Below, piece by piece: positions 5,366 to 49,445 of a stretch of 64,000 nucleotides of DNA. The translations under genes and the position numbers were made by a program. Below the pieces are notes generated by a model. It was not told the origin of the DNA, did no database searches, and saw only the letters and a list, made by a program, of their open reading frames with translations. Source of the stretch: Chamaesiphon minutus PCC 6605 (lineage in GTDB: Bacteria > Cyanobacteriota > Cyanobacteriia > Cyanobacteriales > Chamaesiphonaceae); contig NC_019697.1 of the NCBI RefSeq assembly GCF_000317145.1, positions 2,480,001-2,544,000 on the forward strand, in the 5' to 3' direction. The stretch's first letter is position 1. Each line of letters opens with the position of its first letter.

Positions 5366-6436
5366 TTAATTTTCCGCTCGTTTGGGGAATTTAGGCAGAT
5401 CGATTTTGGTGGCTTTGGCAACGGTGCCGCGATTGACGGTGGGTGCTGGCCAATTGGGAGATGATTCGGCAATTTTGAGGTCGTTGAAGGCAGTACTTTC
5501 TTTATCGCTGGTTTCTGTCGATAGCGATGTGTCAGCAGCTACGGGAGCTGGCGCAGGCTGGTAAAGATCGCGATAAGGATGTGTCTCTCTATCCTGGCGA
5601 ATTACTTCGCGCCAGCCTCCTGGTGAGGATGGTTGAGGTGGCGGCAGGATGGTGTTTTTGGCTCGGTTGGGAGCCGATGGCGTCCAGTCTGGCATCTCAA
5701 TTTGGGGAGCCGCTAGTGGTGCCGAGGGGGGTGCTGGGTCGATTTTAGCGGTGGAGATGTCTGTACGCTTAGGAGCCGATCGATCGGCAGTCGATTTGTA
5801 AGTGGCGATTTCGCCAGATAGTTCGCCGCTGAATGGGGTCGGATCGGTCGCATCTGACTGTGGGGGCGTCGCAGTGCTACCAGGTGTCGATTGGCTGGTG
5901 CCATTAGCTTGGAGCAGCTTCAGCCGCCGATGGAGTTCGATCGCGACGCGCTCGGTTTTGAGCAGTTTTTGCGATTGTAAATCGTATTGTTGCCGCAGTT
6001 CTTCATGTTCGGCTTCAATTTGAGGCACGATCGTTTGGACGATTTCTAGTTGCTGCGAGAGGGTTTCGATCAGCGTCTGTTGACGTTGGCCGATTTGGTG
6101 CGAAGTTTCTAGTTGTAAAAAGAGTGCGCTAACGCGATCGTGTGCGGTTCTCAGCTCATCTTGTTGTTGCAAGATGGTAATTTCGTGGCTCTGATTGGCT
6201 TCTTTGTGAGTATGTAATGTCTGCTTGGCAGATGCCAAAGCTTGTTCTAATCTGGCGATTTCTTCGACTAAATGGCGGTTGATTTGGCGGAGATTGCTGA
6301 CTACTGTCAACCAGTCGGTACGATCGGGTTGTGCTTCAACCGTGGTATAGATCGTCTCGATCGCTTGGTCTGTTTTGGCTCGACTATCGCCAGAATTCGC
6401 GCTACCGGGGTTGTGGGGCTGTTCTGCTGGGGTCAT
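5366..6436 (-). CDS. Coiled-coil protein with disordered Pro/Ser/Thr-rich C-terminal half
   Basis: 356 aa from ATG 6436 (MTPAEQPHNP); the longer frame reads into repeat DNA and is rejected. Residues about 45-190 are strongly heptad-like (LRQINRHLVEEIARLEQALA, LSQQLEIVQ, LLKTERVAIELHRRLKLLQ), so a long coiled coil is predicted. The rest is low-complexity and probably disordered, ending in a short basic tail (PKFPKRAEN). Conserved cyanobacterial proteins of this shape exist but have no assigned function. Its 5' leader consists of short C-rich tandem repeats (6448-6560). Confidence 0.75.
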   Translation of the reverse strand: MTPAEQPHNPGSANSGDSRAKTDQAIETIYTTVEAQPDRTDWLTVVSNLRQINRHLVEEIARLEQALASAKQTLHTHKEANQSHEITILQQQDELRTAHDRVSALFLQLETSHQIGQRQQTLIETLSQQLEIVQTIVPQIEAEHEELRQQYDLQSQKLLKTERVAIELHRRLKLLQANGTSQSTPGSTATPPQSDATDPTPFSGELSGEIATYKSTADRSAPKRTDISTAKIDPAPPSAPLAAPQIEMPDWTPSAPNRAKNTILPPPQPSSPGGWREVIRQDRETHPYRDLYQPAPAPVAADTSLSTETSDKESTAFNDLKIAESSPNWPAPTVNRGTVAKATKIDLPKFPKRAEN

Positions 6437-9908: not shown

Positions 9909-10945
9909 TTTTGCTCTATCTTTAAAACTCAACTACTCGGTACATCGGAATAATTAGATCGCTATTTATTGACTCGATTGCTGAAACTTTAGACTGATCG
10001 CATTAAGATCATCAGTGACAAGCAGATGCCCATAGACAAATTTGTGCGGAGCAATAACTCTGGCTTGTCTTCGCGATCTATTTTCCAGAATATTCACTCT
10101 CGCCGATCGACACTATCGATATTACTCGATATTTCTCAAAGTCTAACTCGATCGCGTAGCCTCCCATTTGGGTAATTGCTATGAGTTCGATTCGGCAAAG
10201 CCGACGCTACGCGAACGTAATTGTTGAAGTCGATCGATCGTCTCTAATCGATCGCGATTACCTTCGGTAGGCAAAGCCAACGAGTCAAGCAATCGGATTT
10301 ATTTTTATAGATATCGAGCTAATACTAGAATCGATCGCGATTGGATCGATCGTAATTATTTTACTCGATCGATGGCTAGTCAGATCGATCGCTATTTATC
10401 ACACTCGATCTTTTTATTCTATCGATCGAGCGTGATGTTTGGACAGATCGTTATTTATTCACTCAATCGCGATCGATCCAAGCGATCGCGGCTGATGGTA
10501 TTCGCTCTTACTATTATATTCGATCGGTTAGTTATTTCCTGGTTGAGAGCGGAGGATTTGTAATTGCTCGATCGTTTCTTTTGGAATATAAAACCCGATC
10601 GGCTTTAACTCGATCGTCAAAAGTTTGGAGCGATCGAGCAATGGTAATAATCGATCGCTAATGTTGAACGATTCGATCGCGTTGTAAAGTTAAATGCTTA
10701 TAATAACAATCGAGCGTAATTATTTAGAGCGATATCGATTTGGGAGACTCGATTACCTTGCACGCGGCTACGCCAACGATTTATGCTTTCGATCGATCGT
10801 TTTTGGATTCATTCGACCACCCTTGGGGGTGCGCTTGCGCGATCGAGCGTTAGAGTATCGATCGCTCGATCGGATTCGAGCGTGTTAAAATTTGCCATGC
10901 GCTCTCGAAGCTTGCGCGCCGCCTAGCGGCGGTCGGTTAGCTGTT
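9909..10945. other. Non-coding, CGATCG-saturated spacer
   Basis: 1.04 kb without a credible gene. It contains repeat copy B (10089-10575), two short dispersed repeats (GGCAAAGCCGACGCTACGCGAACG-like near 10194-10218, and GGTAGGCAAAGCCAACGAG near 10266), and a stretch at 10575-10900 with CGATCG roughly every 20-30 bp. A GCCGCCTAGCGGCGG palindrome at about 10919-10933 lies just past the stop codon of the 10946-11793 gene. Confidence 0.8.
10089..10575. repeat. Long CGATCG-rich direct repeat, copy B
   Basis: The left part, 10089-10451, is nearly identical to copy C (11979-12330). The right part, 10322-10575, is nearly identical to copy A. It therefore links the two other copies as a composite. 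Small indels and substitutions separate the copies. Confidence 0.88.
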
Positions 10946-11793: not shown

Positions 11794-12678
11794 GCACAGC
11801 CATACCAAAATACTCTGACAGTATTACATATTCACCAGCAATTATCGTCGATCGCACAATAACTCTTAATCGATATTGCTCAATTGTGGCATGAGCTATC
11901 TTTTGTTAGATCTCACCACCGAACGACAACTTTGCCGCACTCAACATCAGGAAAACCCAATATAAATACGATTTGCCAAAATATTCGCTCTCGTCGATCG
12001 ATACTATCGATATTACTCGATATTTCTCAAAGTCTAACTCGATCGCGTAGCCTCCCCTTTGGAGAATTGCTATGAGTTCGATTCGGCAGAGCCGACGCTA
12101 CGCGAACGTAATTATTGAAGTCACTCGATCGTCTCTAATCGAGCGCGATTACCTTCGGTAGGCAAAGCCAACGAGTTAAGCGATCGGATTTATTTCTATA
12201 GATATCGAGCTAAAACTAGAATCGATCGAGATCGGATCGATCGTGATTCGATGGCTAGTCACATCGATCGCTATTTATCACACTCGATCTTTTTATTCTA
12301 TCGATCGAGTGTGATGTTTTGACAGATCGTTCGTCATAATCAATAGCTCGTCCAGTTACGATCTCAGAAATTCTTAGTTCCACAAGCTTTGAGGACTTCA
12401 CTCCTTAACGGGACAGTGCCATTCATCAAAGGTCAGGACTTTGGTAGAAGTATAGATCGTAAAGCGATCGGGCTATTATCCCATGTAGCGATATTTTCGA
12501 GCGTGACTCAGATCGATCGAAACTTTGTATCTGCATCATAACTCCCAACTTCCAACTCCGAACTTCTATCTATACAAAAGGCGATCGCTAGACCGATCGA
12601 CTTCGGCTAGTATATAGTTACTGAGATACTTCGACCATCGATCGGCATCCAATCCCTACAGCCTCAAACCCTCATCTG
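11794..12678. other. Non-coding spacer upstream of sbcD
   Basis: 0.88 kb. Holds repeat copy C (11979-12330). The remaining 12335-12678 has scattered CGATCG sites and no gene, RNA or clear promoter that I can support. Confidence 0.75.
11979..12330. repeat. Long CGATCG-rich direct repeat, copy C
   Basis: About 350 bp nearly identical to 10089-10451, in the same orientation. Copies B and C bracket the frameshifted Rpn-like gene. Confidence 0.88.
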
Positions 12679-24936: not shown

Positions 24937-25258
24937 ATCAGATCGGAGATGAGCGATTTATCTTAATTATCTCAATTAATAGTCACACAATCCAGATTAC
25001 TTCATCTCTACGCCGGAGTCCCGATCGGGCAGGCATACTATTACCTATTGCTGTTGCTACAACACGAACAAACTGATACAGTCATGGTATTTCCCCGATC
25101 GACATGTTGGCTGACAACATCGGCTTGTCGATCGAGTATCGCATCGCAAGGCTAAAAACGTTAAGTATCGATTATCCGTAGGATAGGCTTTGCCAACGAA
25201 TGCTTGAGAGCGCAAGATTTTGAGCATCCGTCAACTTCAACCACAATGGTGAACCCCC
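24937..25258. other. Divergent spacer between ruvB and the coiled-coil gene
   Basis: 322 bp holding the promoters of both directions. A TGTTGGCTGACAACA palindrome is at about 25108-25122 and a GGCTTTGCCAACGAA dispersed repeat near 25187. No RNA gene recognised. Confidence 0.6.
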
Positions 25259-26432: not shown

Positions 26433-26472
26433 TTGAGAGTTGGGCTAACACCAAAATTTCTGCTCTCAACTA
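26430..26472. terminator. Inverted repeat spanning two convergent stop codons
   Basis: Arms TAGTTGAGAG (26430-26439) and CTCTCAACTA (26463-26472). The TAG of the plus-strand gene and the TGA of lnt lie within the arms. Likely a bidirectional terminator or mRNA 3'-end hairpin. Confidence 0.6.
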
Positions 26473-28064
26473 TTTGAACTTTTTGCAGACGAAGTAGATT
26501 TGAAGAATAAGATCGATCCGATCGCGAATAATAGCGGTGTCAACCAGTTACCATACCGAACGTATAAAGTTTGGGTATTTTGACGATAAACTCGATGAGT
26601 GTGAGCGGCAAATTCATTGAGTTTAGAGATCCATTGGGTGCGTCCGTGCGGATCGATAACTGCCGAATAACCAGTATTGCTAGCACGCACCGTCCACCGA
26701 TCGGTTTCGATCGCTCGCATCAAATCTAGAGCGTGGTGTTGAGCTGGCATTCCCGCACCATAATGAGCATCATTAGAAGCGGTAATAATCAATTCTCCCG
26801 TCTGCGCTTGACGGCGAAAATGCTCTGGATAGGCCGAGTCATAACAGATGCCAAAAATAAAATTACCGAGCGGTGTATTGACGATCGGGGCAAATTTGCC
26901 AGCTAATAAATGAGCTTCCAAAGGCGAGATTGTATCGATAAGTTTGCCCAGATATTGCTCGAACGGAATATATTCACCTAATGGCACTAATTTCCACTTA
27001 TCATAACGACTGACGATCTGTCCCGCACCATCGATCGTTAAGATGCTATTCGTTATTTTATTACCCACTTCGCCAAATCCACCGAGGAAGGCAATAACTT
27101 TTTTATCTAAAATCGTGCGATAAAAAGGTGTATTTTGAATCTGACTTTCGCGATATGGAAAAGCAGTTTCTGGCGTAACAACTGCTGCTACTCCCTGCTC
27201 CGCCAGGTCTATATAACCTTTAGTATAATTTTCCATGGCGAGATCGTATCCAGAGCGATAATGTCTGACTTCATTACCGACATTCCCCTGAATGATGCCG
27301 ATCTTTATGGCAGATTCAGCTTGCTGCAATAATGGGCGAGCGGCTAAATTCGACCCGAACGAATGAAAAATAATAATAGATGCGATCGCCGTCCCAAAAT
27401 AAGGCCATGCCAATCGAAGTTTTCGATTCGATCGTTGGCAGAGCCTCTCGGCATGAGAATCGCGATTGATTATCAAACATCCTTCAGCAATTAAACCATT
27501 AATAAACACGATCGCGCCAGTAATAGTAGTCGGCCCCGATAATTGTCCCAGATGGAGAATGGCTAAATTATGCGGACTTTGAGTCATGGCGATTGGCGAC
27601 CACCATAAATCTGTCAGACTATATAATTCTTCCAATCCACACCATAAAGACGTCCCTAAAATTACACGCACAAAGGGATTTAGTTGCTGTTTTGAGGTAT
27701 AAATAAACCGCAAACCTAACGACCATAAAGTTACTAAACTCGCACCCCATAAAGTAATAAAAGTTAAGCAAAAAGTAGCAATTCCCAAGCTCGCCAAATA
27801 AGGAACCCCCATCCAAGTCATCGGATGGATGCCAAAGATCCAACTCAATGCCAACCCATAACAACCAACGCCCCAACCTAAGCCATAAACTAGCGATCCA
27901 TCGCGTTGGCACAGTAAGTACCACAATGGCGCAATAGCCACCCAAGCCAAATACCAAGCTTCAACAGGCGCAAATGTCATCCCCATCAAGACACCACTAC
28001 CTAGTACGATGCCGATCTTGAATAGCTGGCTCTGATTAATTCGATCGCGAAAGGGTAGTAGCAT
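26466..28064 (-). CDS. lnt: Apolipoprotein N-acyltransferase
   Basis: 532 aa from ATG 28064 (MLLPFRDR); the longer frame only reads repeat DNA. Lnt adds the third acyl chain to lipoproteins at the inner membrane. About six transmembrane segments in the first 240 residues (GVLMGMTFAPVEAWYLAWVA and others) precede a periplasmic nitrilase domain. The catalytic triad is visible: Glu about 299 (VVTPETAFPYRES), Lys about 357 (YDKWKLVPLGEYIPF) and Cys about 407 (FGICYDSAYPE). This fits the two lipoprotein methyltransferases encoded further right. The leader contains pyrimidine-rich CCCTCTA repeats. Confidence 0.95.
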   Translation of the reverse strand: MLLPFRDRINQSQLFKIGIVLGSGVLMGMTFAPVEAWYLAWVAIAPLWYLLCQRDGSLVYGLGWGVGCYGLALSWIFGIHPMTWMGVPYLASLGIATFCLTFITLWGASLVTLWSLGLRFIYTSKQQLNPFVRVILGTSLWCGLEELYSLTDLWWSPIAMTQSPHNLAILHLGQLSGPTTITGAIVFINGLIAEGCLIINRDSHAERLCQRSNRKLRLAWPYFGTAIASIIIFHSFGSNLAARPLLQQAESAIKIGIIQGNVGNEVRHYRSGYDLAMENYTKGYIDLAEQGVAAVVTPETAFPYRESQIQNTPFYRTILDKKVIAFLGGFGEVGNKITNSILTIDGAGQIVSRYDKWKLVPLGEYIPFEQYLGKLIDTISPLEAHLLAGKFAPIVNTPLGNFIFGICYDSAYPEHFRRQAQTGELIITASNDAHYGAGMPAQHHALDLMRAIETDRWTVRASNTGYSAVIDPHGRTQWISKLNEFAAHTHRVYRQNTQTLYVRYGNWLTPLLFAIGSILFFKSTSSAKSSNS

Positions 28065-28492
28065 TGAGAGGGTAGAGGGTAGAGGGTGGAGGGGAGCGGG
28101 GACACAGGTTAGCACCGATAACCTCATCCAGCAAATCTTGTAAATCCTGAAAATCCTGATGCCAAGAGTGGACGTAGGTTATCGGTGCTAACCTCATCCA
28201 GCAAATCTTGTAAATCCTTAAATCATGATAAAGCTATAGATTTCGATCGCAATTGCGATCGAGCTGCTGAGATTGTGAATGTTTCTATAGGTATTTTCCT
28301 ACCGATCGCCGCTCTGTGTCACAAAAATTAATGCCTCTGCGAGTCATCTCTCATAATCAGATCGGGGGTTCGATCGGGCGAATACCGGGCAAAATCGAGG
28401 CCGGACATGGTTTATTGCCTTGATCCACGACTCGATCGCTCATATAATGACTTTATATAAATAAACATTAAGTAAACACGTTCGTTAATATT
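28065..28492. other. Divergent spacer between lnt and the DUF3120 gene
   Basis: 428 bp. Contains GGGTAGA repeats next to lnt (28070-28092) and the duplicated block at 28106-28222. The rest (28223-28492) must hold the DUF3120 promoter; no convincing box or RNA was seen. Confidence 0.6.
28106..28222. repeat. Duplicated block with an inverted palindromic head
   Basis: A 17-bp imperfect palindrome GGTTAGCACCGATAACC (about 28108-28124) is followed by CTCATCCAGCAAATCTTG and TAAATCCT. The same tail recurs about 62 bp later behind the exact reverse complement of the 17-mer, GGTTATCGGTGCTAACC. Confidence 0.85.
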
Positions 28493-36288: not shown

Positions 36289-39200
36289 CTATAGGATCGC
36301 TCCTAAAGCTGTTAAATTCTCCTGCTGGGCAGCAGTCAATCCTTGGATGCCCCGAATATTCATCCCCTCATAGGGTCGAGGAGCGCGAAGGATTTTGACG
36401 CATTCACCCGTAGCGATATCCCAAATGCGAATGGTGGCATCAGCACTAGAACTAGCTAGCAACTTTCGAGCGGTGCCATGTTGAGGGATGAAAGCTACCG
36501 AGAATACTCCACTTTCGTGTCCCTCTAATACTTGCAGACATTCACCCGTATGGAGATCCCAAAGTCTGACGGTGCGATCGAAACTGCCGCTGGCTAGCAA
36601 TCGTCCATCTGGACTAAAAGCCACAGACATCACAATGTCCGTATGACCCCGCAAAACCTGGAAACATTCACCCGTAGCTATGCTCCAAAGTCCAATCGTG
36701 CGATCGCTACTACCACTAGCCAAAATATCGCCGCTGGGGCTAAACGCGATCGTGCAAATCCCTCTGCCCACCTGCCAAGTCCGCAGACATTCACCCGTGT
36801 GGATATTCCAAAAGTTAATCGTGCGATCGCCACTAGCACTAACCAGGATATCTGGCTGGAAGCCAAACGCTAATGACATCACCCAATGCGTGTGTCCTGT
36901 CAAAATCTGGAGGCACTCACCCGTTTGGGTACTCCAAAGTCTAATGGTGCGATCGGTACTGCCACTGGCAAGAATTCGACCGTCCGAACTGAAAGCCATC
37001 GAGCGGATTTCGTAGCTATGACCGGATAAATTTCTGAGGCACTGGCCATCCTGCACGCTCCAGAGTTTAATCTTCGGATCTCCATTGCTACCGCCACCAG
37101 CTAGGAATCGACCATCTGGACTCACTGCCACTGCTCTAATCGCGTCAGTGTGACCTCGAAAACTCCTATATTCACTATTTTGAATATTCCAAAGTCTGAG
37201 CATCTTATCGAAGTATCCGCCAGCGATTAATATGGGTGGGTTCGCAATATTTGGGTCGATCGATTCTGGTAAATGAAATGTCGGGACAAAGACGATCGCA
37301 AAGAGCGCATTTGAGTACCCCTGTAAAACCTTGAGACATTGACCAGTCTCTAGACTCCAAAATCTAATCATGCGGTCTTGGCCGCCGCTGGCAAAGAGCT
37401 GACGATTCAGATCGACGGCAATCGACCATAGCCCGTTCTCATGACCGATGAGCGTCTGCTCGCACTCTTGAGTTTGAATGTCCCAAATTTTGATGGTACG
37501 ATCCTTGCCACTGCTGATGAGCCTTCGACCATCGCGATCGAAGGCTACCGATTTCACTTCATTTTTGTGCCCTACTAAAGTTCCCAAACACTCACCAGTA
37601 TCGATCTCCCAGATTTTGACTGTAGTATCATCGCTGCCGCTGGCTAGAAACTTGCCATCTGGACTAAATACTACAGACCAAACCCAGCCTTGATGACCCG
37701 CCAGCATTTTCCAGTATTTTCCATGCCTACCGTTCTGGATTTGCCAGAGGTGAATAGTGCCCTTAGAACAGCCGCTGGCAATGGTGCGACCATCTACACA
37801 AAATGCAATACACTTGACATCTTGGGGTTCGATCCCATCTTCATACTGGAGGCTAGTCAGACACTCCCCACTGTTGACATCCCAAATTTTGATGGAGCCA
37901 TCATCGCTACCGCTTGCCAAGATTTTGCCATCTGGACTAAATGATACTGAGTATACCGCCTGGGTATGGTCGGTAAGTGTCTTCAAGCACTCACCAGTGT
38001 CTAAATCCCAGATTCTGACGGTGCCATCGAAACTGCCGCTTGCCAGTATGTGGCGATCCTCCGCTGAAGACGCTAGGCGAACAGGGGCGTAAGTCAGGGA
38101 ATGAACTAAACTGATGTGACCTTTCAAGATCGACTGAAGTTGATGAGTGTGCGTATCCCACAAGTAAATATCGCCGTTAAAACCACCACTAGCAAGATAG
38201 TTGCCATCTGGACTTAAAGCTAGTGAGTTAATGCTACCAAAGGTTTCAGTAAAAACTGACTTGGCTACATCGGTATCGGCAAAATTAATGTCATGTAAAT
38301 CGATTCCGAGCAGATAAGCTTGCCAAATACACAGACCAGAAAAATCGTGCCCACTCAAGTCAATTTGCAAGTGACGGTAGAGGTTAATTAGATTGCCCCC
38401 AGCATAGCCACTAGTCCCCGCAAATTCCGATCGCAGTTTCACTAATAATCGATCTAATTGATTTTTAATTTCTAGTTTCGATCGCAATTTACCCATCAGT
38501 CGATCGACCAGCGGCACTAAAATCATTCGCACTTGGCTTTCGCGTACATAGTCTTTGGTCTGAGCCTGAATCAGTGCATGACTATTGAAAATCACCACAT
38601 TAGATGTGGTAATTTCTTCGCAAATCTGCTCGATAAATATGTCAGTGACATACTCCATCACCACGGGTTGTAAAGTAAAGCAGCTCGAACTTTTTTCAAT
38701 CAGACTTTGACGATCTAACGATTGTAATGCGGCTAAAACTTGAGAGCGAAATCCGCTAGGAATGAAGTCTGCTAATAGTTGAGAAATCGAAATAGCTTCG
38801 CGCCCGATCGCTAGCCAGTACATTACCTGTCGCTCGATCTGGGACAATCGAGCGAATTGCTGTGCCAGTAAAGCCTCAATCCCATTGCAGAGAATTACCC
38901 CCTGTTCTAAAAACGTGCTCACGCTACCGTCAAATAAATCCCGAATTGTTGTCGCTGCAATTTTAATTGCTAACGGGTTGCCGGAGTAAGATTGCTGTAA
39001 CTGCTGCCAATCGCTGGCATCGGCTGTATGACAACCATTAGCAGTACCGTTGGCGTAGCCTGTCTGCAAGACAATCGCTTCCACTTCTCGATCGCTCAAA
39101 CCAAGTAAATCTAACGTGCAAACTGCTCCAGATTCCCCTTCTAAATGAATCAAAGTTCGGGGTTTTTCCCGACTGGTTAATAATAAACAACTAGCATGAT

Positions 39201-40002
39201 GTTCGGTCGCGATCCGGCGGAGGAGTTCGCTATAGCCAGCATAACCGTCACGATAACCGCCATCCGCGAGAATCGATTCAAAATTATCGAAGACAATTAG
39301 ACAGCGAGTAGTGCGTAAATATGCTATCAATTGCGAGATCTGAGCATCCACCGTATCCGCAGGTGCGGTTTGCTGTTGGTGAGAGACAAAGGCAATGAGC
39401 TGAAAGAGAATTTTATCCAGTGGTGGGGCATTACGTAAGGATTGCCAGACAATGCGCTCGAATTTGCGATCGGCTGCTAACTTTTGAGTGAGTTTAGCGG
39501 CTAATGATGTTTTGCCCATGCCACCCATACCGACGATCGAAATCAGCCGACAACGTGGCTCAAGGGGATTAACTTTAGAATTGTCATCCAGCCATCGTGC
39601 CAACTGCTGGAGTTCATTTTCGCGCCCAATGACGCTAGAAACATCGATCTGCTCGCCCCAATAGCAATCTCGATCTGGGGGCGAAGCTGAGCTGACGGGA
39701 TTCGACGGTTCGACAACTGCCGACACCGCTCGATCCACTAGTTCTGGTGCAATGTTGCTCCGGCGGCGTAGTACTGCTTGCAAATTATTTTTGGTGACGG
39801 GTTCGCCCAATACCTGAGTCAATTGTCGCCATAGTTCGTAGCCGACATCGCGGATGTATCCAGTGTCATAACCGATTAGCTCGGCCATTTTGGGGTAGGT
39901 GCAACCTTCCCAAGCGTGACGAAACACTTGCTCTTGAAGATCGCGGAGACTTTGAGCTTGAAGCAGTCGATCGAGTAATGCTAATGCTTCATCTGCTGTC
40001 AT
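36289..40002 (-). CDS. Giant STAND NTPase (HTH-NB-ARC-14xWD40), copy 2
   Basis: 1237 aa, same architecture and strand as copy 1 and closely similar throughout. N-terminal [21 protein letters not shown]-loop [16 protein letters not shown]; Walker [44 protein letters not shown]; bridge [16 protein letters not shown]; then 14 WD40 repeats ending [20 protein letters not shown]. The C-terminal tail ([17 protein letters not shown]) is shared with copy 1. Differences cluster in the '[16 protein letters not shown]' insertion and in repeats 3-4 and 8 of the propellers, as expected if ligand specificity diverged after duplication. No separate effector domain. Confidence 0.94.
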
Positions 40003-41069: not shown

Positions 41070-41555
41070 ATGTCATCGATGCAGACAGCCCCAATTTCGA
41101 TTTCCAACTACCAAATAGTGTCGATGGTTGACGGTGTGAAGTTTTTATCGCTTCCTTCACTTTATTGCCACCAAAGGCAGGCTAAACCCTGCATCAGAGC
41201 GGTCAGAGGTGGCGATCGTCTTTTTTTAAATCCAGTCAGCTATTTCCACAAATCAACCAATCGTTATATCAGGAAAAAACTCATGTCACCCATACGTAAA
41301 AACAGCTCGATCTCTGATATCGAAACCGAATTAATCAATTGTCTGTTGAGATCGCCCACGATCGATTACCCCTGGAATCCTGCCGACCCCGATACCGCCG
41401 ACTACTACGCCAGATCGGATCGTCACTTTTGTTTGGAAAATCGATCGGATGCCGAACTCTACGTTGGCGTAGCCTCTCCTGTGGAGACTCGATCTCAATC
41501 TTTCTCAATTTGGCTGCAATCTTTGCGAATCGATTTTCACCCAAATCTTAACTAA
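41070..41555 (+). CDS. Uncertain small protein carrying an interspersed-repeat insertion
   Basis: Open frame from ATG 41070 (preceded by AAGGAG) to 41555, 161 aa; an internal ATG 41283 behind AGGAAAAAAC would give 90 aa and is the likelier start. The second half reads SDIETELINCLLRSPTIDY, then YVGVASPVETRS, which is encoded by a dispersed repeat (41461-41492) also found in the ferredoxin gene, then FSIWLQSLRIDF. No family recognised. It is possibly a decaying gene. Confidence 0.45.
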   Translation: MSSMQTAPISISNYQIVSMVDGVKFLSLPSLYCHQRQAKPCIRAVRGGDRLFLNPVSYFHKSTNRYIRKKLMSPIRKNSSISDIETELINCLLRSPTIDYPWNPADPDTADYYARSDRHFCLENRSDAELYVGVASPVETRSQSFSIWLQSLRIDFHPNLN

Positions 41556-41596: not shown

Positions 41597-41973
41597 ATGA
41601 AAGCCAGCTCATTCATCAAACTCACCAACATTCTCGATCGCATCCAACTTCATTTTGATTCGTTGGCGCGTAGCCTCTGTCTTGACCCAAACCAATGGGT
41701 CGGGAACCTCCGCGTGATTTGGGTCGCTCCATCGGGAGAATCGATCTACCCAAGATCGGTATTCGCGGGATCGTTTTTACCCACACGCCTCGTCGGCCAA
41801 TAGTTACCGAACTAAAACCAGATGATGCGAATTTAACTCTTAGCGATCGCGGAAATACTTCGGATCGTAACTCTCAAAAATCTCAACTCGTTCGCGTAGC
41901 GTTCGCCTTGCGAAATCGACGGCACCGTTCGATTAATTGGCGGTGGCAATCTCGGTTAATACAGTGGCTTTAA
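41597..41973 (+). pseudogene. Probable frameshifted small gene
   Basis: ATG 41597 opens MKASSFIKLTNILDRIQLHF, closing at 41803. A second frame from about 41695 continues sensibly (GRSIGRIDLPKIGIRGIVFT, RRPIVTELKPDDANLTL) to 41973. A frame change near 41690-41700 would join the two. The region also has truncated GGCGTAGCC- and CGTTCGCGTAGCG-type repeats. No homology recognised. Confidence 0.4.
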
Positions 41974-49115: not shown

Positions 49116-49445
49116 TTAATTCAGTACTTCTACCTCTTTGTGAGTCTCAAATACACAATTCGATAGCGGGTGAGCGATGCAAATTAATACGTATCCCTGA
49201 GCGATTTGTTCTTCACTCAGAGCCGATCCTTCTGACTGGTCTACTTCACCTTCGTTGGCGTAGCCTCTCCCCTGGAGAATCGTCTTGACAGTGCATGTCG
49301 AGCAAATGCCTTGCCGACAGGAATATGGTAATTCCATACCTTGTTCCTCGGCAGTTTCGAGGATAGAGGTTGCATCTGGTACTTCAAAAGTTTTATCGAT
49401 GCCTTCGGCTTGGTTATATAGTCTGACCTGGTACGAACTTGCCAT
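49116..49445 (-). CDS. Plant-type [2Fe-2S] ferredoxin with an 11-codon repeat insertion
   Basis: 109 aa from ATG 49445 (MASSYQVRLYNQAEG). Cluster ligands: Cys43, Cys48, Cys51 in YSCRQGICSTC, and Cys91 in YVLICIAHP. Plant-type ferredoxins have 29 residues between the third and fourth Cys; here there are 39. The extra residues (TILQGRGYANE, residues 55-65) are encoded by 49251-49283, a copy of a dispersed repeat also present at 41461-41492. It is in frame and the rest of the protein is intact, so it may still bind the cluster. Alternatively it is a recently altered, poorly working isoform. Electron carrier for reductases. Confidence 0.93.
   Translation of the reverse strand: MASSYQVRLYNQAEGIDKTFEVPDATSILETAEEQGMELPYSCRQGICSTCTVKTILQGRGYANEGEVDQSEGSALSEEQIAQGYVLICIAHPLSNCVFETHKEVEVLN
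49251..49283. repeat. Interspersed GGCGTAGCCTCTCC...GGAGA repeat inside the ferredoxin gene
   Basis: About 30 bp shared with 41461-41492 (CGTTGGCGTAGCCTCTCC, then TGGAGA and TCG). Shorter relatives lie at 10148-10170, 12038-12060 and 41662-41682. Its CTCC...GGAG ends are complementary. Confidence 0.85.

Follow-up and report, generated by a model that had tools for sequence, protein, structure and literature searches.

The window analysed here, 64,000 nucleotides of the Chamaesiphon minutus PCC 6605 chromosome (positions 2480001-2544000 of 6284095 bp, in a whole genome of 6.76 Mb), contains a gene for a plant-type [2Fe-2S] ferredoxin of 109 residues (Table 1). The Fer2 domain is present (Pfam PF00111, E 1.2e-17), the score with TIGR02008 (fdx_plant) is 108.2 bits against a cut-off of 81.15, and the four cluster cysteines, C43, C48, C51 and C89, are invariant among 30 ferredoxin sequences. 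Within the gene is a copy of a dispersed repeat, further copies of which are found elsewhere in the window.

Table 1. The ferredoxin gene and the repeat copies of the window (window coordinates)
Feature	Position	Strand	Particulars
Plant-type [2Fe-2S] ferredoxin gene, 109 aa	49116..49445	-	ATG at 49445, stop 49116-49118
24-bp SDR5-like element in the ferredoxin gene	49255..49278	+	between CG (49253-49254) and ATCG (49279-49282)
Second copy, with target flanks	41462..41491	+	right end CTCG; C. polymorphus empty site CGATCG
24-bp copy in 1237-aa WD40-repeat ORF (36292-40002, -)	39048..39077	+	strict match; Pfam
24-bp copy	41889..41918	+	strict match; occupied in paralogous stretch L006
24-bp copy, in frame, in apolipoprotein N-acyltransferase gene (26469-28127, -)	27433..27462	+	strict match; Pfam
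24-bp copy	25169..25198	-	strict match; C. polymorphus empty site CAATCG
24-bp copy in a duplicated stretch	12079..12108	-	strict match
24-bp copy in the other copy of that stretch (partner of 12079)	10188..10217	-	strict match

With its target flanks the element in the ferredoxin gene occupies 49253-49282 of the plus strand and, in the minus-strand reading of the gene, its 24 bp are in frame and supply eight residues, LQGRGYAN, as residues 57-64. (An alignment with the congener C. polymorphus draws the same 24 bp one base to the left, 49254-49277.) The initial annotation had proposed that a dispersed repeat lies in frame in a ferredoxin here, and in this it was right, the motif GGCGTAGCCTCTCCNNNGGAGA having, at up to three mismatches, 208 matches genome-wide against 2 for a reversed control. 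Its measurements were too generous: 33 bp encoding 11 residues, TILQGRGYANE, had been taken as added, but T, I and E beside the insert are ancestral positions, C. polymorphus reading K-T-I-E-G there, and the spacing between the third and fourth cysteines, C51 and C89, is 37 residues and not 39. The spacing of 29 that it gave as usual is that seen in C. polymorphus.

In a DNA alignment the 24 columns of the insert are missing in all nine homologues, and there is no other gap except at the C-terminal end. The proposed comparison with relatives thus came out as anticipated, though for 24 bp, and the clean empty sites bear out the claim that a repeat entered coding DNA without breaking the frame. 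Protein identity is 64-86% for eight of the nine and 56% for the ninth (from Nostoc sp. NMS7, where the fifth codon is TAG), and two are congeners, C. polymorphus CCALA 037 (G003, L061), in which the ferredoxin flanks join gap-free at the insert site, and the MAG Chamaesiphon GL140 (G002, L066). At the corresponding place in 29 other ferredoxins, 24 are without insertion, one has three extra residues slightly further on, and four (L084-L087, from four species of one genus) have a 7-residue insertion, LPENTYP and variants, in the same loop but with DNA unlike the repeat. As these four are only 45-48% identical, they indicate a site that tolerates insertions and do not refute the Chamaesiphon case; what the annotation had named as a refuting case, close homologues in many genera with the same longer loop and unrelated DNA, was not found among the 29.

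The annotation's second copy, placed at 41461-41492 in an unrelated ORF, exists as a motif (Table 1), but the 172-aa ORF that holds it may not be a gene, since it is without a Pfam match; the DNA around this copy has a second copy elsewhere in the genome (L006). For the copy in the WD40-repeat ORF, homologous places in C. polymorphus are empty (CGATCG, CGATTG, CGATCT) and one further place is occupied, and for that in the apolipoprotein N-acyltransferase gene a degenerate element is at the same place in C. polymorphus. The two copies of the duplicated stretch are about 90% identical, and beside the element at 12079 is a degenerate element on the opposite strand (12040-12069).

Genome-wide, 30 copies retrieved by the core motif continue on the left as CGTT in 29 cases and on the right as ATCG in 26. 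A strict 30-mer, CGTTSGCNNAGCSTN11AATCG, has 163 copies in the genome at hand against 0 for its control, and is present in 107 of 291 genomes searched (own included), the control being 0 in every row. Copy numbers are 15 to 163 in the genus Chamaesiphon, all nine genomes of which have it, and 33 to 103 in four genomes of genus g39; in most of the remaining genomes copies are few or absent. Between CG and ATCG the element consists of two hairpins, SGC-NNA-GCS and TNNNN-NNN-NNNNA. In the variable stem, on whose pairing the search pattern made no demand, 193 of 204 cells are paired among 51 strict copies (shuffle mean 119, maximum 133), and the covariation score for 28 distinct copies is 0.406 versus 0.097 when shuffled and at most 0.113 when slid. 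Both hairpins are kept by compensatory change. A shorter form with the same target has 41 strict matches genome-wide, 31 of them of 22 bp and eight of 23 bp; the stem of the 22-bp copies is mostly TACC...GGTA (e.g. G000:C1:260981-261008).

Both flanks were matched in the C. polymorphus sequence examined for 15 of the 88 own elements with usable flanks: 12 of these sites are empty there, the difference being exactly 24 bp (11 are independent, one pair being a duplicated stretch), two are occupied in both species and one is unclear. Conversely, five of 31 C. polymorphus elements matched both flanks in own sequence examined, two sites being empty (24 bp) and three having 24 bp between the flanks. 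There are in all 13 independent comparisons of an empty with an occupied site; every one of them is at a C[G/A]ATCG-like site and shows a difference of 24 bp, neither more nor less. Left out of the 13 are L028:1497 (gap of -8), L114:111 (a 3-mismatch match, gap of 11) and, for the 39048 copy, both a place whose flanks are 48 bp apart (occupied, with a second element adjoining) and an own paralogous place with a gap of -2. Synteny with C. polymorphus is poor in three own 20-kb regions, L180, L236 and L237, which for that reason contributed little to the empty sites.

The empty sites read CGATCG, CAATCG or forms one to a few bases off (two of the 13 read CGCTCG), the split being between CG and ATCG, and insertion is clean: nothing at the site is visibly duplicated or lost. 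Bases outside the target core vary among the 30 copies, and the full HIP1 octamer is not required. The second base is G at seven of the 13 empty sites and A at six, the latter being the ferredoxin, 25169 and, in L179, positions 797, 6146, 8417 and 10023; at position 6146, A is read at the closer places and G at those further off. Use of targets in proportion to their number would lead one to expect about 13% of the A type (P 0.004), so that either CGATCG and CAATCG are both targets or the second base mutates unusually fast. Conceivably, each of the two shares six bases of homology with the ends of the element. With empty and occupied sites available in two congeners, one can read directly where and in which frame so small a mobile element inserts and what it targets.

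Small dispersed repeats (SDRs) are in general 21-27 nt in size, and one of them, SDR5 (small dispersed repeat 5) of Nostoc and relatives, reportedly uses the full octamer GCGATCGC exclusively as its target. In the abstract of Elhai et al. from 2008, SDR5 is said to have secondary structure with compensatory changes. The element here, 24 bp in all 13 independent comparisons, is alike in size and, with covarying hairpins, in being structured; it differs in that the full octamer is not its target, the outer bases being variable, in having CAATCG as well as CGATCG among its empty sites, and in that about half of its 24-bp copies are in frame inside ORFs. In PMC4390886, SDR5 is described as inserting between bases 3 and 4 of HIP1 (between GCG and ATCGC), and TCGATCGA as the dominant octamer of Chamaesiphon minutus. 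The split between CG and ATCG is that same place in the HIP1 core, and an element so small, dispersed and precise in its insertion matches SDR5, beside which it is set by target, size and hairpins. The kind of element is, then, already known and the ferredoxin is a new instance of it. Within the literature searched, neither the ferredoxin insertion nor a contrast of size classes was found described, the original SDR paper, which may describe copies inside genes, being outside that search. To our knowledge, the mechanism of such tiny repeats is unsolved.

Palindromic repeats inside protein-coding genes are also known from Rickettsia, as the Rickettsia palindromic elements, which are longer than the element here and are found in other organisms. 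A further distinction is that, according to PMC3733652, these end in CGTC. Another comparison is with the GTAG-tagged REPs and REPINs, with their RAYT transposases and with some REPs intragenic, as described in PMC3733652 and PMC3116915. The element here is also a short hairpin, has a GTAG-like tag in about half of its copies and is present in a genome with RAYT genes. Yet the GTAG tag of REPs is unpaired and at an end, and here GTAG, where present (49 of 106 24-bp copies), is partly within the small hairpin and not terminal. REPs are, besides, mainly extragenic, and the present element is target-specific.

Location with respect to ORFs deserves attention in its own right. A copy was counted as inside when at least 15 aa from the ends of an ORF of at least 150 aa, such ORFs being mechanical and not annotated genes. 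To be among the 106 24-bp copies considered, a copy had to be flanked by 1000 bp to left and right in the sequence examined. The set is not a random draw from the 163, since some of its loci had been chosen through the exact ferredoxin-type core and some of its regions for their density. Of the 106, 53 are inside ORFs, to be compared with 352 of 612 CGATCG sites (P 0.17) and with 1764 of 2812 random positions, below which they fall (P 0.01); depletion is little or moderate. In ORFs of that length are 0 of 31 22-bp copies, 2 of 8 23-bp copies and 0 of 3 25-bp copies, the 0 of 31 being biased because a 22-bp insert itself breaks any ORF; the common 22-bp copy has stops in three of six frames. 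With ORFs of 100 aa, four of the 31 22-bp copies and three of the eight 23-bp copies are inside, which goes against a simple size-class reading. When the flanks are joined, an ORF is present at 8 of 31 22-bp places versus 54 of 106 24-bp places (P 0.015), and all eight of the former are broken by the element, so some broken genes may be where the 22-bp form sits. In the one phase in which GTAG would be read as TAG, the tag is something other than GTAG in all seven in-ORF copies (a chance of 0.013 with random tags), and one reading phase is in excess (17 versus 10.2 expected, P 0.02).

A tentative generalization, to which we lean a little less than to its contrary, is that the 24-bp class is a protein-compatible mobile element. 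Eight codons with mostly stop-free frames would let it spread in genes almost as freely as in spacers and leave recurrent peptides (VGVASPxENR, DSPxERLRQR, ILxGRGYAN) in dozens of proteins, its 22-bp sister with the same target being mostly outside intact genes, and what defines the target might be homology to the ends of the element itself, six bases in total (C before AATCG, or CG before ATCG). The existence of two size classes with one target is a natural experiment in the tolerance of proteins to short random insertions.

Many of the ORFs concerned are recognizable. Among 20 scanned (19 element-bearing ORFs and the ferredoxin), 17 have a Pfam match, and the matches include apolipoprotein N-acyltransferase, rhodopsin, lipoate ligase, an EgtD-like methyltransferase, RecJ, P450, PurT and CobK. 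Four of the enzymes were compared with solved structures. In two of them, EgtD and PurT, a single gap of 8 residues coincides exactly with the element; P450 has eight extra residues that the aligner splits 4+4, and the RecJ alignment breaks into two pieces with the element in between. The cost of such an insertion could be measured in the ferredoxin, EgtD and PurT. A separate observation is a bacteriorhodopsin-like gene (L002:1337-2320) whose C-terminal tail contains two in-frame elements.

For the ferredoxin itself, the structure predicted with the insert keeps the ferredoxin fold (TM 0.81/0.91 and rmsd 1.5 with 1rfk_B), at a confidence that is modest since the underlying alignment had 17 sequences. 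Modelling of the loop had been put forward as a check, and the loop is the less secure part of the model: ten residues have pLDDT below 50, seven of them being 58-64 in the insert, the sole stretch of at least three such residues, and the mean pLDDT is 76.9 with the loop versus 81.8 for the C. polymorphus protein without it. Between the two species dN is 0.066 and dS 0.36, values that span both lineages and do not isolate the time after insertion, and lineage-specific replacements number seven versus five; these figures show no apparent sudden release of constraint. Other ferredoxin matches exist in the genome, including one of 54% identity at a distance of 16 kb (2545150-2545437), so redundancy may help. 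The insert, with its added loop modelled at low confidence, is probably tolerated.

The initial annotation had left the choice between a new isoform and tolerance; the divergence values favor tolerance and nothing shows a new isoform. That the insertion alters function, by way of a new isoform or altered partners, and was selected for it, is improbable. In plant-type ferredoxins the loop adjoins the region that contacts partner proteins, and an independent 7-residue insertion at the same place in another genus would fit with such a role. The sequence of the peptide, however, follows from the repeat, and other ORFs contain it too; the in-ORF rate of 24-bp copies is near that of random CGATCG sites, as expected without selection for function. 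The reverse history, an ancestral longer loop that relatives have since lost, was considered and rejected; it is opposed by the nine homologues lacking the insert and the 24 ferredoxins without insertion there, as well as by the insert being a dispersed-repeat copy with target flanks, and its probability is negligible.

Taken as a whole, the reading that we consider very probable is that a 24-bp element of the SDR5 kind inserted after the split from C. polymorphus at a HIP1-like target with the frame kept, its spread presumably being by single-stranded DNA of the HUH type and its loop presumably nearly neutral. In the Chamaesiphon lineage the element entered an accessory ferredoxin at a C[G/A]ATCG-like site overlapping codons K-T-I-E-G, the frame being kept because 24 bp are eight codons and the strand and phase used are stop-free. 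It presumably spreads as a folded single strand with two small hairpins, and its joining into HIP1-like sites would most likely be the work of a Y1/HUH transposase of RAYT type acting in trans. The added loop would be exposed and nearly neutral, with the ferredoxin predicted still to fold and bind its cluster. As to the transposase, the genome has five Y1-transposase matches, and of four tested, two score above the cut-off as REP-associated tyrosine transposases. Around the five Y1 loci the 22-bp form (at up to three mismatches) is matched more densely, 6 in 16.6 kb versus 8 in 144 kb (P 0.0004), an enrichment that concerns that form and whose hits are not independent, because three of the six surround one gene.

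Whether the source is instead a GTAG-type REP, moved by RAYT transposases and unrelated in origin to SDR5, has to be weighed with the same data, and we consider it rather unlikely. About half of the copies do have GTAG, then two bases, then a hairpin with a 3-base loop, and RAYT genes are present with 22-bp relatives near some. The other half of the copies differ in the tag, and with GTAG limited to 49 of 106, strict recognition by RAYT is less credible; moreover, half of the 24-bp copies are inside ORFs, the target is that stated for SDR5, and the clear RAYT genes are adjoined by another GTAG repeat, GTAGGGTGGGCANTGCCCACC, which flanks one of them on either side (L184) and is found downstream of the second (L185). 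A different alternative concerns the route only: spread through an RNA copy, which Elhai et al. reportedly proposed, in place of a DNA transposase. Small size, covarying hairpins and clean insertion are consistent with it and fit a DNA route equally; it is unlikely to be the route used here, and the Y1/HUH transposase has somewhat better odds.

Of the ferredoxin subfamily, a second copy in the genome (L082, G000:C1:1264700-1266900, minus strand) is a chimera in which an N-terminal Fer2 part (residues 14-56) is joined to a BON domain and the fourth cluster cysteine is absent. A close relative of the ferredoxin is present at four places in Pseudanabaena biceps (L062-L065), distributed over three records that are titled plasmids.
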